Shown: positions 3,347 to 20,406 of the stretch, one piece after another | Position numbering within the stretch: the stretch's first letter is position 1 | How the letters are laid out: every line of letters starts with the position of its first letter | Source: a virus | Length of the DNA stretch: 20,406 nucleotides | Reading direction: 5' to 3' (one strand) | IMG/VR virus record: IMGVR_UViG_3300032895_000081 | Span: 1-20,406 of that record | The notes under the pieces: model-generated | Told to the model about the DNA's origin: nothing | Seen by the model: the letters and a program-made list of their open reading frames with translations, nothing else | Databases searched by the model: none | Program-made: the position numbers and the translations under genes

Positions 3347-6300
3347 GTGTCTGTGCCAGCTGCAGAAACTGCGGAAACCCAGCAGCCAGTTCAGCAACAG
3401 CCAGAACTCCAGCATCCCGTTCTTGATGCGCTCATAGCTGGCTATCTGCTCACCCATCCGCCGCTGGCACAGTTTATGCAGCGTCGCCGCAGCTACGTGG
3501 CAGGCATGTCAGGTACACGGCTTGCGCAGCTAGCACAGGTGCTGCATCAGGTTCAGCAGCAGGCACTGGCCGATGGTCAAGTTCCCGAACCTGAAGAAGT
3601 GAAACAGCAGCTGGATGCGGTGCTCGCCAGTCCCGCAGTCGGCGGTGCGCCAGACGGTCCAGCAGCCAGCTCAGCGGCTAACGTCGGCCAGACCGAAGTA
3701 TCCGCTGCCGTGGCTGAAGCCGCTCATGATACCTACCGCAACGCTGGCGTGGCAGCCACTGAATGGCTTACAGCAGAAGACGAAAAAGTATGCCCCATCT
3801 GCGCCGCTAACGAAGCCGCAGGCGCAGTGCCCATGGGCATGCCGTTTCCGTCTGGTGACCTTATGCCCCCAGCGCACCCACGGTGCCTACCTGGGAACAC
3901 TCTTGTAACGGCCAGTAGCCGTATCACGGGTGCAACCTCGCGGGTATACAACGGTGATCTCGTCAGCATCCGCACTCTGACGGGCAAGCTCCTCACCGCT
4001 ACCCCCAATCATCCGGTACTGACGAACCAGGGCTGGGTTCCTGCGGGCGTCGTGCAGGTAGGCGAGCAGGTAGTCACTAGCAGCTGGAGTCAGCGGGTGC
4101 GTGGCGTTGACAACAATCACCAGCACATGCCAGCCACTGTCAAGCAGGTAGCGGAAGCGTTTTTGCGCTCTGGCCAGGTGCTGTCCGCTGAAGTGCCAGT
4201 TGCCGCCGAAGATTTCCACGGCGATGGGGCCGGCAGTGAAATCTGCATTGTAGGGGCCTATCGCCGTCTGCCGACGCCATACAATGCCACGGTCGTCCAT
4301 AAATGTGGCCATCAGGTTTTCCAGCGGAGAGATGTTACCAGGCTTGGCTTCGCGCCCCTTGGCCGCCGCAACGCGCTTTTCGTCGGTAAGAGGCACTCCG
4401 CGCACCGCCGCATGCGCAGCGCTAACCAGCCGCTGGCGCTCCTCGGGGCTGGTCCTGGCCATACGCAGGTACATGCTGGTGCTTCGGCCCCTTGGCTCAA
4501 TGCCGTTCTCCACGAGCCGAAGCCGTACCACTGGTCGGCTGACGCCGAAGGCTTCGCTCAGCGCCTTCTCACTCTCTCCAGCGACATAGCGCTGGATGAG
4601 GTCGTCCACGTCGAAGTCGCTACGGCGAACACCCATGTTTACAACCTTGAAACCGAAAGTGGATGGTACATAGCCAACGGTATTGTAACCCACAACTGTC
4701 GGTGTACCCACACGCCGACTGACTATTACAGTGTCCCGCCGTACGTTCAGCAACGGGAAGGTGAGCCGCTGCGGTGGTTTGGCTGGCCTGACACGTCGCT
4801 GACTGAAGAACAGCGGCTGCAGAATAAGGGCTGGCACGATGCGTGGATGCACGAGGCGCGCGGTTTCCACGGTGAGTGGGCGGGAATAGACACCTTTATA
4901 CCTGGCATGAAACCAGCGCAAGGTGTTAAAGACCTGCAGACCGTAGTCAAGAACATATCTGGCGCTGGCGACCATGAAGTCACCTATGGCCGCATGCCGA
5001 CCTTGTGCCCAGCATGTAACGGCATCGGCGGAACATGCGAGCAGTGCGGCGGCACCGGCAAGCAGCCGACAGGGAAGTGCCTGAGCTGCGGCTGCGGCCT
5101 TCCCCATGACGACCACGGCGACCCGCGTAACATCACCCAGGACGACGTGCAGGCCGCGGCAGCTGCTGCTGAACTGCCTGGCGGTCAGGCAGCCAGCAAC
5201 ATAGCCGACTGGTACCGCAGCCAGCCTGATGCTGACGACGCACCCACCGCTAAGGTGCTCACCGCAGATGAGATAGCCCGCATAGACGACGCACTGATGC
5301 ATGCGTACAAAAAGAAGTCACCCCGTGGTAATGCTCAGACGCTACGTGATTACTGGTCAGGCCACGGGCACGCTGGACCATCACACGGTGCTGAACGTGA
5401 CGCCATAGCCTGGGGCACACCAGGCGACTTCGACAGGTGCGTCGCCATGGTGACCACTCACGCGAAGATGTCACCTGAGCAGGCTAAAGGTTACTGCGCT
5501 GAGCGGCATCATGATGCGCTTGGCATATGGCCAGCCACGCACGCTAAGGACATCCGCGAGGCTTCGGGTGGGAGCAAGAAGCACGTCTCCATCGCCGACC
5601 TGGTGAAAGCCGGCCCAGAGGGCTATATCCACGGCTGGATTTGTGTCCGCCCGCCCTGCGGTGAAAAAGACAGCCTCCACCTGGAAGAGAACGAGCAGGC
5701 CACGTTCAGCATCCCAGGTCACGGAATGATGGCCAGCTACCGCATTGTGCACGGCGGTACTGGCCAGCAGCTGGGCACCGTCCGCCCGACAGGTGACCGC
5801 GAACACGGCGTCCAGTTCGCCGCGTACAACAACACCAACGTCCACACTCCTTCTGCTGTGGGGGATGACCCAGCGAGCGGCCTGCGGCAGGTAGCCCGCG
5901 AGCATGACCTGCGGCTGCTGCGTGACAAAGCCAGTGCCGCTGGGTTCACCGAACCAAGACGGCAGCTGGACAATGCCCGCAACCAGCTGATGGGCGGCCG
6001 TGAAGACGCTGCTGCGGAGTCGCTGCGGAGCGCGCAGCAAACACTGGACGCGATACCGCCAGTTACCGACCCGCGTGGCTTCTCCAACGCTAAAGATGTA
6101 GCCCAGCTGCGTAACGGCGTCGTGGACCTTTACCATGACCTAACTGGCGATGAGCTGCCTGAGCGGAAACTGGAAGTCCCTGACGAGCCATGGGCTAAAA
6201 CAGGGAAGATACGCCGCAGCCAGCTAGAAGTTCACTGGGGTGACGGCAGCCATGCTGAGGTCATCCATAAGCCCACCGGGATTCAGGTTGGCACAATTGA

Positions 6301-15882: not shown

Positions 15883-16617
15883 GTGCCAACCGAAGAAGGT
15901 AAGAAGCAGCAGGCTGAGGCAGTAGCAGCAGCTAACCGCCGGCGTATGGGCGAGAAGCGCCCGAACCAGAAATCAACCCACACACCAGAGTCGGACGCTA
16001 AGCGTTCAGAAGCGATGAAGCGGCGCTGGGCTGACCCTGAGTACAAGGCAAGGCTTTCGGCAAAGTTCAAGGCCAGCATGACGCCGGAAACCAGGACCAA
16101 ACACAGCAAAGCCCAGAAACGTGTCCGCTCCAGTGAGACGGACAAAGCGCGGCGTGCTGAAATAGAAGCCAGGCCGGAAACCAAAGCTGCCCGGAGTGCC
16201 GCAGCCCGAAAGCGCTGGGCGCGGCCTGGGGAGCATGAACGGCAGAGCGAAGCTATCAGGCAGACGTGGGTAACACCTACACCTGAACGTCTCAACTCCC
16301 TGCACTGGCGGCATGACAAGCCGCTAACAGGACTAGAAATTCAGGTGCTGGCTGCCCTTGCTGCGCGGGGCGTAACACTGCCTGCCGAGCATATCCACAT
16401 GACGGTTGGCCGGTACGAGTTTGACTTCTACGTCGAATCCCTGAACCTGGATGTCGAGTGCGACAGCAGGCACTGGCATGCTCATCCAGACCGCGTCAAG
16501 CACGATGCTGTACGGGATAAGAAACTCAAGGCGCTCGGCTATACGGTCCTGCGCATCACCGAAGAAGAGATTACCGCTGGGGACTTCACCCGCCTGGACG
16601 AAATCCTCAGCAAGTAA
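15883..16617 (+). CDS. Free-standing homing endonuclease (NUMOD3-like repeats + Vsr/EDxHD-like nuclease)
   Basis: The 244-residue product starts at GTG 15883, 5 bases after GGAGG. The basic N-terminal half has repeated SEAMKRRWADPEYKARLS-type elements, at ~42-59 and again in weaker form near 104-130. These are characteristic of NUMOD3 DNA-binding motifs in phage homing endonucleases. The C-terminal half has a nuclease core: LEIQVL helix (E152), YEFDFYVE (D181), LDVECDSRHWH (E192, H197, W198, H199), D203, and LKALGYTVLRITEEEI. The E ... D ... E-x-x-x-x-W-H order matches the antisense nuclease in intein 1 (E106, D132, E141, W147, H148), suggesting one fold. Such enzymes cut gene alleles lacking the insertion and copy themselves in. 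The target is probably the 3' part of the capsid gene or the adjoining spacer. It is bracketed by two strong hairpins. Confidence 0.82.
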   Translation: MPTEEGKKQQAEAVAAANRRRMGEKRPNQKSTHTPESDAKRSEAMKRRWADPEYKARLSAKFKASMTPETRTKHSKAQKRVRSSETDKARRAEIEARPETKAARSAAARKRWARPGEHERQSEAIRQTWVTPTPERLNSLHWRHDKPLTGLEIQVLAALAARGVTLPAEHIHMTVGRYEFDFYVESLNLDVECDSRHWHAHPDRVKHDAVRDKKLKALGYTVLRITEEEITAGDFTRLDEILSK

Positions 16618-18525: not shown

Positions 18526-18546
18526 AGGAAGGAAAACTGGACAATT
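18526..18546 (+). promoter_or_regulatory. AGGAAGGAAA ribosome site before a probable ATT start codon
   Basis: AGGAAGGAAA (18526-18535) sits 8 bases before ATT at 18544. Reading from that ATT gives the canonical glycosyltransferase beginning (x-RILWFSNAP). No ATG/GTG/TTG occurs in frame nearby upstream, and the next in-frame one lies after the first nucleotide-sugar motif. Confidence 0.5.
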
Positions 18547-20406
18547 AGGATTCTGTGGTTCTCGAACGCTCCGTACATTCCAACGGGATACGGAACGCAA
18601 ACCGCTACCTGGCTGCCCCGTCTGGCGCAGCTAGGGCACGAGGTGATGTGCGCTGCCCCGTCGTCGCATTACGGTGCGCCGCTAGCCTGGGAAGGCATAA
18701 CTGTCCTACCAGGCTGGCGGGACGGCACTGGCAACGACATTCTGCTGGACCACTACAGGTGGTCTAAAGCGGACCTGGTTATCACCCTGTGTGACAGCTA
18801 TGTGCTGAACCCTGAGCTGGTCCGGCAGATGCGCTGTGCGCACTGGATTCCGGTGGACTGTGACCCGCCGAACTTCCGTGAGGTAGCTAACCTGGGCCAG
18901 ACGGGTGCACTGCCGATAGCTATGAGCAGGTTCGGGCAGCGGGCACTTAAGGGCCGCGGCGTGTCAGCCAGGTATGTGCCGCATGCTATTGACATCAAGA
19001 CGTTCTCGCCGCCCGCTGACCACATGGAGCAGCGGAACATCATTGGCCTGGGCAAAGACACATTCGTCATCGGCATTAACGCCTTCAACAAAGACGTGAT
19101 GCGCAAGGCGTTTGCGGAGCAGTTTCTGGCGTTCAGCCAGTTCCACCAGCAGCATCCCGATTCGATGCTGCTGGTGCATTCGTGCGTTGCGGACCCGTCG
19201 TCGGTGGATTTGCGCGCGCTGGCTGAGGAAACAGGTATTTCTGCCAGTGTGCTGTTCCCCGACCAGTATGCGTACGCGACCGGCATGATGACTGCTGAGA
19301 ACATGGCCAGCTGGTATGGTGCGCTGGACCTGCTGAGTAACTGCAGCTACGGCGAGGGCTTCGGCTTGCCGATTGTGGAAGCGCAAGCCTGCTTCCCAGC
19401 CGAAACTCCGGTTTCGGCTACAGGCATTGAGCGTACCATGAGCAGGACGTACAGCGGAGAGATGGTCTCCGTTACTACTGCTCGGGGTGACACGGTGGAG
19501 GCCACTGCCGAGCACCCATTCTGGACCGATAGGGGATGGATTCCCGCAGCTCAGCTAAGGCATGATGACCTGCTCCTATATACTGGGGGGTATGCCAGCA
19601 GCGGGATACAGGAAGTACACGCCGGAACAATTGGGGAGGTTGTCGCAGCTCTACGCACAGATGCCACTGAGGGAAGCGGCAGAGCACGCAGGTATGACCT
19701 ACGAGGCGGCGTTCTGGCAGGTGCGGCAGCTGGGCCTACGCAAACAGTTCTCGCAGATCGTCAAGCTGAACCCAGTTACCGTTGGTCCCGAGAGTCTGAG
19801 CTACCTGGCTGGCCTCATCGACGGCGAGGGAACCGTATCCATTCGCAAATTCAGCGGCAAGTACAAACCGACTATCCGCGTTGCGAATACGTCTCAGCCT
19901 CTGATGGCATGGCTGGAGAGACACTTCGACGGTCCTTCGACGTTTATCGAGCATCGTCGTATCCGACCAGCCAGCGAACTTCAGTGCTACATGTACCATA
20001 TTCAGGGACTCGGGCACCTGCCACTGTATCAGGCGCTGGTTCCCAGGCTGGTTATCAAACGCCAGCAAATGGAGTGCCTAGTAGAGTTCACCGAGCTGCG
20101 CCTGACTCAGAATCGTTCGGATCCCTTGTCGGAGCGGCAACTGGAACTGGTCTCTACCGTGCGGAACCTGAATATCAAGCCATCCGCTCGATTGCGCGCA
20201 GAGTTGTCCGCGAACTCCCTGTCTACAACCTGACAACGACTTCAGGTACGTACACAGCTGCTGGGTACCTGGTTCATAACTGCGGCACGCCTGTGGCTGT
20301 TACTGACTGCTCGTCTATGAGTGAGCTGGCTGGTCCTGGGTGGAAGATTCCGTGCCCGCTGCCATCCAGCAAGTTCTGGGTGCCTGCGCACCGCGGCTGG
20401 TGGCGC
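18544..20406 (+). CDS. GT4-type glycosyltransferase, intein-containing (3' truncated by window edge)
   Basis: 621 residues are visible and the frame runs off the window. The N-terminus (RILWFSNAPYIPTGYGTQT), the PRLAQLGHEV helix, later VPHAIDIKTFSP and VIGINAFNKD, and the C-terminal EGFGLPIVEAQA-CGTPVAVTDCS donor-site motif (after intein removal) are those of GT-B fold, family 4-type retaining transferases, which move sugar from a nucleotide donor. The start is the unusual ATT 18544, supported by the ribosome site and the family's normal N-terminus. The intein (residues 283-579) interrupts the conserved donor-binding E-x7-E region, so splicing is needed for activity. Position after Ser/Thr-rich surface-protein genes suggests glycosylation of virion proteins; host-surface modification is an alternative. 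Confidence 0.85.
   Translation, partial: MRILWFSNAPYIPTGYGTQTATWLPRLAQLGHEVMCAAPSSHYGAPLAWEGITVLPGWRDGTGNDILLDHYRWSKADLVITLCDSYVLNPELVRQMRCAHWIPVDCDPPNFREVANLGQTGALPIAMSRFGQRALKGRGVSARYVPHAIDIKTFSPPADHMEQRNIIGLGKDTFVIGINAFNKDVMRKAFAEQFLAFSQFHQQHPDSMLLVHSCVADPSSVDLRALAEETGISASVLFPDQYAYATGMMTAENMASWYGALDLLSNCSYGEGFGLPIVEAQACFPAETPVSATGIERTMSRTYSGEMVSVTTARGDTVEATAEHPFWTDRGWIPAAQLRHDDLLLYTGGYASSGIQEVHAGTIGEVVAALRTDATEGSGRARRYDLRGGVLAGAAAGPTQTVLADRQAEPSYRWSRESELPGWPHRRRGNRIHSQIQRQVQTDYPRCEYVSASDGMAGETLRRSFDVYRASSYPTSQRTSVLHVPYSGTRAPATVSGAGSQAGYQTPANGVPSRVHRAAPDSESFGSLVGAATGTGLYRAEPEYQAIRSIARRVVRELPVYNLTTTSGTYTAAGYLVHNCGTPVAVTDCSSMSELAGPGWKIPCPLPSSKFWVPAHRGWWR
19390..20280 (+). other. Intein 2 (297 aa) in the glycosyltransferase
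   Basis: The element runs from Cys (TGC 19390) to Asn (AAC 20278-20280), followed by Cys+1. Block A is CFPAETPVSATG. Block B is VEATAEHPFWTDRGW, with T-x-x-H. Block F is LPVYNLTTTSGTYTAAG and block G is YLVHN. All class 1 splicing residues are present. Between blocks B and F the splicing frame is open but carries Arg/Ser/Pro-rich sequence with no endonuclease motif (for example GWPHRRRGNR opposite the LAGLIDADG motif). That stretch encodes a LAGLIDADG enzyme in the +1 frame. Removal joins EAQA to CGTPV and restores a perfect GT-B motif. Confidence 0.93.
19562..20233 (+). CDS. LAGLIDADG homing endonuclease encoded out of frame inside intein 2
   Basis: The 223-residue product is read in the +1 frame relative to the intein and glycosyltransferase. 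TAAGG lies 2-5 bases before the paired ATGs at 19562/19565; ATG 19592 is an alternative. Residues ~19-60 form a helix-turn-helix-like domain (YTPEQLGRLSQLYAQMPLRE, then AAEHAGMTYEAAFWQVRQLG). A single motif YLAGLIDGEGTVSIRK follows at 81-96 with catalytic-type E89. Then come PTIRVANTSQPLMAWLERHF, a YMYHIQG strand and LVIKRQQMECLVEF, all standard for free-standing single-motif enzymes that act as homodimers. It ends with TGA 20231-20233 inside block F codons. It occupies the normal endonuclease position in an intein but as a separate gene. Expression probably needs internal translation initiation on the glycosyltransferase mRNA. Confidence 0.88.
   Translation: MMTCSYILGGMPAAGYRKYTPEQLGRLSQLYAQMPLREAAEHAGMTYEAAFWQVRQLGLRKQFSQIVKLNPVTVGPESLSYLAGLIDGEGTVSIRKFSGKYKPTIRVANTSQPLMAWLERHFDGPSTFIEHRRIRPASELQCYMYHIQGLGHLPLYQALVPRLVIKRQQMECLVEFTELRLTQNRSDPLSERQLELVSTVRNLNIKPSARLRAELSANSLSTT

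Follow-up and report, generated by a model that had tools for sequence, protein, structure and literature searches.

A predicted splicing-competent intein of a phage glycosyltransferase gene overlaps a LAGLIDADG nuclease gene in the +1 frame

The sequence studied here, referred to as the window, is a complete IMG/VR record of 20406 bases and is probably a phage fragment. At its far end, a gene for a GT4-type glycosyltransferase is interrupted by an intein, and the DNA of the intein also holds, in the +1 frame, the gene of a LAGLIDADG-type nuclease (Table 1). The N-extein gave weak Pfam matches (Glyco_trans_1_4 and Glycos_transf_1) and an NCBIfam match to MshA (E 7.5e-9), and an intein-less homologue, L002, was 63% identical to the glycosyltransferase of the window. 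The intein splits the protein at EAQA/CGTPV, directly after the stretch EGFGLPIVE, which we take to be the EX7E donor-site motif of GT4 enzymes. In place of the EAQA, intein, CGTPVAVTD of the window, L002 has the uninterrupted EAQACGVPVVVSD (EAQACGVPV). Hence the insertion is exact, and when compared with L002, removal of the intein restores the conserved host protein, an in-frame insertion of the kind that characterizes class 1 inteins. It may be noted that the start codon of the glycosyltransferase gene is uncertain. It is apparently an ATT at 18544 (ATTAGGATTCTGTGG, matching MRILW in the related contig L003). As the conserved N-terminus is compatible with no ATG, GTG or TTG, the gene may use a rare start codon.

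Table 1. Features of the intein-bearing glycosyltransferase gene, numbered as in the window.
Feature	Position	Strand	Basis
N-extein, N-terminal part of GT4-type glycosyltransferase	18544..19389	+	Weak Pfam and NCBIfam matches; identity to L002
Intein, 297 codons, stop-free throughout	19390..20280	+	C1, T39xxH42, LVHN end, Cys+1; Pfam; AlphaFold
N-terminal splicing region (blocks A, B and the following turn)	19390..19656	+	Model confident at residues 1-66 and 75-89
Possible expression signals, TATACT (-10-like) and GGGGGG before ATG 19592	19579..19591	+	Weak
Nuclease gene, +1 frame, 213 aa and stop TGA	19592..20233	+	Same-site identity; AlphaFold; I-MsoI/I-CreI fold and profile
5′ dual-coding overlap, splicing region and nuclease N-terminus	19592..19656	+	Frame-0 conservation z 7.2, nuclease residues 1-20
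HTH-like N-terminal domain of nuclease, residues 11-47	19622..19732	+	Model helices H11-21, H26-32, H37-47
Intein-frame linker, predicted disordered, little conserved; DNA encodes nuclease core	19657..20166	+	pLDDT about 30, residues 90-259
LAGLIDGEG motif, residues 72-80, catalytic acidic E79 (predicted)	19805..19831	+	Aligned with I-MsoI AGFLDGDG
Lys156 in PxLxIK	20057..20059	+	Aligned with I-MsoI PYLRIK; matches conserved I-MsoI/I-CreI lysine
C-terminal splicing region (blocks F and G, ending LVHN)	20167..20280	+	pLDDT 74-88; invariant among GT-site inteins
3′ dual-coding overlap, nuclease C-terminus and start of block F	20192..20233	+	Frame-0 z 3.6 from nuclease residue 200
C-extein of glycosyltransferase	20281..20406	+	CGTPVAVTDCSSMSELAGPGWK matches intein-less L002; contig end truncates gene

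An earlier note on this DNA had described a splicing frame open through 297 codons, and this was borne out: the frame begins with C1 at 19390, runs to the last Asn (20278-20280) and is followed by Cys+1 at 20281. All residues of a class 1 intein are present, namely the nucleophiles at 1 and +1, the His-Asn of the C-terminus (LVHN) and the TxxH of block B, here T39-A-E-H42 (TAEH). Block F has an Asn, a position where many inteins have Asp. The intein matched the Pfam family Intein_splicing with an E-value of 1.6e-5, below the gathering score. In the AlphaFold model, residues 1-66 and 260-297 were confident and residues 90-259 disordered; when the ordered part was compared with the Mtu RecA mini-intein, it superposed over 106 residues at 1.8 Å (Z 13.2), showing a Hint fold. 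A search of Rfam gave no match to a group I intron. These features support the identification of the element as a true intein, for which splicing competence is predicted.

The +1 frame is free of stops from 19562 up to a TGA at 20231-20233, and encodes an HTH and the motif YLAGLIDGEGT. The earlier note had placed the nuclease at 19562-20233 with its own start. The two domains and the stop stand as described, and the start is revised. The upstream ATGs at 19562 and 19565 were not common to the relatives in the alignment, and the conserved start is the ATG at 19592, where MPAAGYRKYTPEQL aligned with MPNKGYRKYTEEEL, MPAKGFRKFTPAQL and MPKKGYRKYSQAQS of the relatives. A start at 19562 or 19565 is thus probably wrong.

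When the nuclease was modelled by AlphaFold as a single chain, a pLDDT of 93.3 was obtained, with three N-terminal helices, one alpha-beta LAGLIDADG unit carrying one motif, and C-terminal helices. The best fold and profile matches were I-MsoI and I-CreI (Foldseek E 2.4e-7; profile E 2.5e-26 to I-MsoI). The protein therefore has both the motif and the fold of the I-CreI/I-MsoI type, its single-sequence Pfam match being below gathering. AGLIDGEG was invariant across all aligned nested nucleases, and Lys156 of PxLxIK was invariant in 19 nucleases. The nuclease lay at +1 to the splicing domain in all six cases described below, and not in the same frame as in a canonical bifunctional intein. Motif, fold and profile agree with the view already put forward that this is a single-motif LAGLIDADG enzyme of the free-standing or intron type, and they support an I-CreI/I-MsoI-like nuclease that is predicted to cleave DNA.

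Sequences upstream of the nuclease start were inspected for expression signals. A good Shine-Dalgarno sequence precedes the gene in L191 (TAGGAGGTGGTTATG) and a fair one in L009; the window copy has just the GGGGGG, one base before the ATG, and no clear Shine-Dalgarno sequence. TATAAT or TATACT occurs upstream of the nuclease start in all five glycosyltransferase inteins, in three of them 7 bases before the ATG. The same hexamer also codes for a conserved Tyr-Asn or Tyr-Thr in frame 0. A hexamer located 7 bases from the ATG could, as a lead only, mean a leaderless transcript. A sigma-70 promoter scan of the window intein gave no match. In L004 a promoter matching at 11 of 12 positions was considered and rejected, the chance expectation being 0.9 and its TATAAT being dictated by the frame-0 codons. 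The nuclease is likely to be translated by internal initiation at ATG 19592.

The earlier note had proposed separate searches for the intein and the nuclease. Same-site relatives were sought by a DNA pattern that combined the glycosyltransferase motif with a subsequent intein start, and afterwards by profile searches. In four other viral (phage) contigs, an intein was found to occupy this site and to carry the same nuclease at +1: L003 (also present as L010), L004 (also as L008), L009 and L191. Their inteins are 294-304 codons long, each with an open splicing frame, and their nucleases and that of the window are 36-50% identical to one another. In a sixth case, L011, the host is unrelated, being a DUF2201 metallopeptidase/VWA-like phage protein, and the intein again has an HTH and LAGLIDGEG nuclease at +1. 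The intein of L011 lies at 4712-5728 (+), and its splicing domain has a longer canonical N-terminal part that is absent from the glycosyltransferase-site inteins. Looser patterns gave no further same-site inteins, and a single-sequence search of viral contigs gave no close relatives of the window nuclease. In L191, another ORF of LAGLIDADG type (AGFIDGDG), whose C-terminal end is HTH-like, is located at 4911-5513 (+), downstream of the intein-bearing glycosyltransferase gene.

In the +1 phase, a stop appears in the intein frame wherever a nuclease codon ending in T is followed by AAN, AGN or GAN. Across the six genes, none of the 302 codon junctions at risk carried the T, and the other codons ended in T in 21% of cases. 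When synonymous codons were shuffled within each gene, the window gene acquired on average 6.9 intein-frame stops and remained stop-free with P = 5e-5. For each of the five relatives the corresponding P was 1.4e-3 or less, and for L011 no stop-free sequence was obtained in 20,000 trials. Over the six genes, the means ranged from 5 to 13 stops, and 5e-5 to 1.4e-3 of trials were stop-free. Among 122 non-nested relatives, 1.6% were open in the +1 phase, with a mean of 11.2 stops. That the host frame is kept free of stops by selection, as had been proposed from the window alone, is thus supported by codon use in each of the six genes.

The codon-level analysis of both frames, also suggested earlier, separated what is conserved from what is held open. 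Within the same-site set, nuclease codon positions 1, 2 and 3 were 58, 63 and 37% identical. This pattern is the mark of the nuclease frame and not of that of the intein. For conservation of frame 0, the null consisted of synonymous recodings of the nuclease that keep the intein frame open. Against this null, frame-0 similarity was strongly raised in the two terminal overlaps (Table 1); between them it was near the null in most segments, with z about 2 in a few. Four-fold sites were 30% identical in the nuclease vs 36% in the glycosyltransferase. The possibility that the linker is constrained as a protein was considered and rejected, as the weak positive z over the whole length resolves mainly to the two ends, and the four-fold sites point the same way. 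As the strong rise in frame-0 similarity is confined to the ends, it is these that encode two proteins, the part of the intein frame between them mostly being just held open.

Between the intein-bearing phages, the inteins or their splicing regions were 39-61% identical, the nucleases 36-50% and the glycosyltransferases 32-42%, and the glycosyltransferase nearest to that of the window is intein-less. Inteins and nucleases are thus mostly more alike than their host proteins, and horizontal spread fits both this and the lack of an intein in the nearest glycosyltransferase. When a tree was made of 128 related nucleases, all six nested members fell on one side of a branch with an SH-aLRT of 94 (quick search, no bootstrap). 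It may be noted that only five same-site copies are involved, and that both the relatedness of the nucleases and the phase rule described below were found by starting from the window's own sequences. As the six cases have diverged and their nucleases form one group, the event that produced the nested layout appears to be old. The arrangement may have arisen once and then moved between host genes; the shared phase alone does not prove a single origin, because the genetic code constrains the phase. The earlier note had inferred that a free-standing-type gene invaded a mini-intein out of frame. The type of nuclease agrees with this. The sequences searched contained no mini-intein at this site without nuclease, nor any intein there with the nuclease in frame, and out-of-frame invasion is therefore inseparable from a later shift of an in-frame nuclease. 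Invasion of a mini-intein by a free-standing gene is plausible.

On the anatomy, the insertion site, conservation, stop avoidance and predicted folds, we favour, with a probability of roughly 0.85, a mobile self-splicing intein that carries a separate homing endonuclease, encoded at +1 in overlap with it, with two selections acting on the shared DNA. The element would occupy the sugar-donor-site motif of the phage glycosyltransferase, and the full-length chain would be translated in frame 0. The two splicing regions (19390-19656 and 20167-20280) would then form a Hint domain and be spliced out, an unstructured loop of about 170 residues lying between them. The I-CreI/I-MsoI-type endonuclease with its HTH would be made from the internal ATG 19592, and would cut intein-less glycosyltransferase genes at EAQA/CG, leading to copying of the element. 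The one sequence would thereby be under two selections, the nuclease being conserved as a protein and the intein frame mostly being kept just stop-free. An open intein frame costs the nuclease nothing, since each stop begins with a third-position T that can be silently replaced by C.

Four other explanations were weighed. A pair of indels from sequencing or assembly error could have put an ordinary in-frame nuclease out of frame, and the GGGGGG run at 19585-19590, at the nuclease start, is the kind of place where this might happen. Such a frameshift pair had been named beforehand as the finding that would overturn the nested layout. The same frame relation was seen in five other, independent contigs with no shared homopolymer, and in-frame stops were avoided in all six cases, so that the chance of such an error is negligible. 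The same G run could be slippery in the window copy, and programmed frameshifting from the intein frame, instead of internal initiation, would then give a fusion of the N-terminal intein part with the nuclease. L003, L004, L009, L191 and L011 show no conserved slippery site, whereas a conserved ATG marks the beginning of the HTH, and Shine-Dalgarno sequences are present in L191 and L009; hence we regard frameshifting as improbable.

Just as improbable, in our estimate, is that the nuclease is a decaying relic carried by an intein that alone is functional. Decay of the nuclease is, as generally known, common in inteins, yet here six diverged copies retain an intact, conserved nuclease frame in which residues of LAGLIDGEG and PxLxIK are invariant. 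Less probable again is a non-splicing insertion with a hidden nuclease that is tolerated in the glycosyltransferase, after the example of the ShiLan domain, which follows the same out-of-frame logic (PMC11855218). Unlike ShiLan, the present element has a complete Hint domain with C1, TxxH, HN and Cys+1, and it is located in a conserved active-site motif. On the sequences compared, the double-coded layout is a real, maintained arrangement and not an accident or a sequencing error.

Like PI-SceI, PI-PfuI and the mycobacteriophage portal intein L199, the mobile intein proposed here has a Hint domain, a nuclease between blocks B and F, and presumed homing mobility. In such bifunctional inteins, the polypeptide that undergoes splicing includes the nuclease, usually with two LAGLIDADG motifs, whereas the +1 frame of the present element encodes a protein of its own with one motif. 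Split inteins whose halves flank a free-standing nuclease gene ('fractured genes') also have a separate nuclease gene within the intein, but their host gene is divided into two ORFs. In the window the host gene is a single ORF through the whole element, and the nuclease gene does not interrupt the splicing frame. I-CreI and I-MsoI share with the window nuclease the fold, the single motif, and the conserved acidic and lysine residues. Unlike it, they are homodimers encoded in group I introns, with no N-terminal HTH and no overlap with a splicing protein. The ShiLan domain and the Pacc40 insertion are out-of-frame HNH nucleases in phage methylases, and in the ShiLan insertion the authors found no features of intein or intron splicing (PMC11855218). 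Both resemble the present case, as the insertion has no stops in the host frame and holds a homing nuclease that is read in another frame. ShiLan has an HNH nuclease, a methylase host and no splicing domain, whereas the present element combines LAGLIDADG and Hint domains in a glycosyltransferase, and so is not of the ShiLan type. The open-access literature searched gave no previous case of a splicing-competent intein that contains an out-of-frame nuclease, and the nearest published precedent is the out-of-frame HNH of ShiLan, without a splicing domain.

When the five non-native phases were examined for dipeptides that make a stop unavoidable with synonymous codons only, two were free of them: the +1 phase found here and the codon-aligned antisense phase. 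The former can be opened by third-position T-to-C changes alone, and the latter by avoiding TTA, CTA and TCA alone. All six LAGLIDADG cases use the +1 phase. The first intein of the window, at 3884-4696 (+) in a MuF-like gene, has a codon-aligned antisense ORF (3890-4696, -) with an HTH and a DUF559/Vsr-like nuclease. Homologous antisense nuclease ORFs were present in 13 of 13 MuF/minor-head-type phage inteins examined, that is, this one and 12 others from Gordonia, Klebsiella, Edwardsiella, Escherichia, Vibrio and Idiomarinaceae phages and viral contigs. No TTA, CTA or TCA codons occurred in the antisense overlap of the 13, and the ORFs were not listed in the public annotations fetched. In the same survey, the portal intein L199 showed an ordinary in-frame LAGLIDADG domain, so that the survey was able to detect the usual layout. 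Like the +1 nuclease, the antisense ORFs lie outside the splicing frame, leave the sense linker open and use a silently openable phase; they differ in being on the opposite strand and in belonging to the EDxHD/Vsr-like nucleases, a family unrelated to LAGLIDADG. By eye, a 244 aa ORF ending in a DUF559/Vsr-like part (FDFYVESLNLDVECDSRHWH), apparently a free-standing nuclease between virion genes, was also seen at 15883-16617 (+) of the window.

The phase rule was recognized post hoc, in sequences that are related to one another. With that in view, we lean, with some reserve, towards a second widespread architecture of phage inteins, in which the nuclease is superimposed on the splicing protein in another frame or strand, just the two silently openable phases are used, and gene finders miss the nucleases. 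Inteins with homing nucleases are usually described as one fused polypeptide, and single-motif LAGLIDADG enzymes located in inteins are unusual; here the nuclease is a separate overlapping gene. Splicing and mobility would be decoupled as proteins and locked together in DNA, such that a mutation in one can break the other. The layout offers a concrete test of overlapping-gene evolution, as the genetic code predicts which phases are allowed. It also suggests that mobile inteins are under-counted, and if the second architecture is true, many phage 'mini-inteins' may be fully mobile elements.
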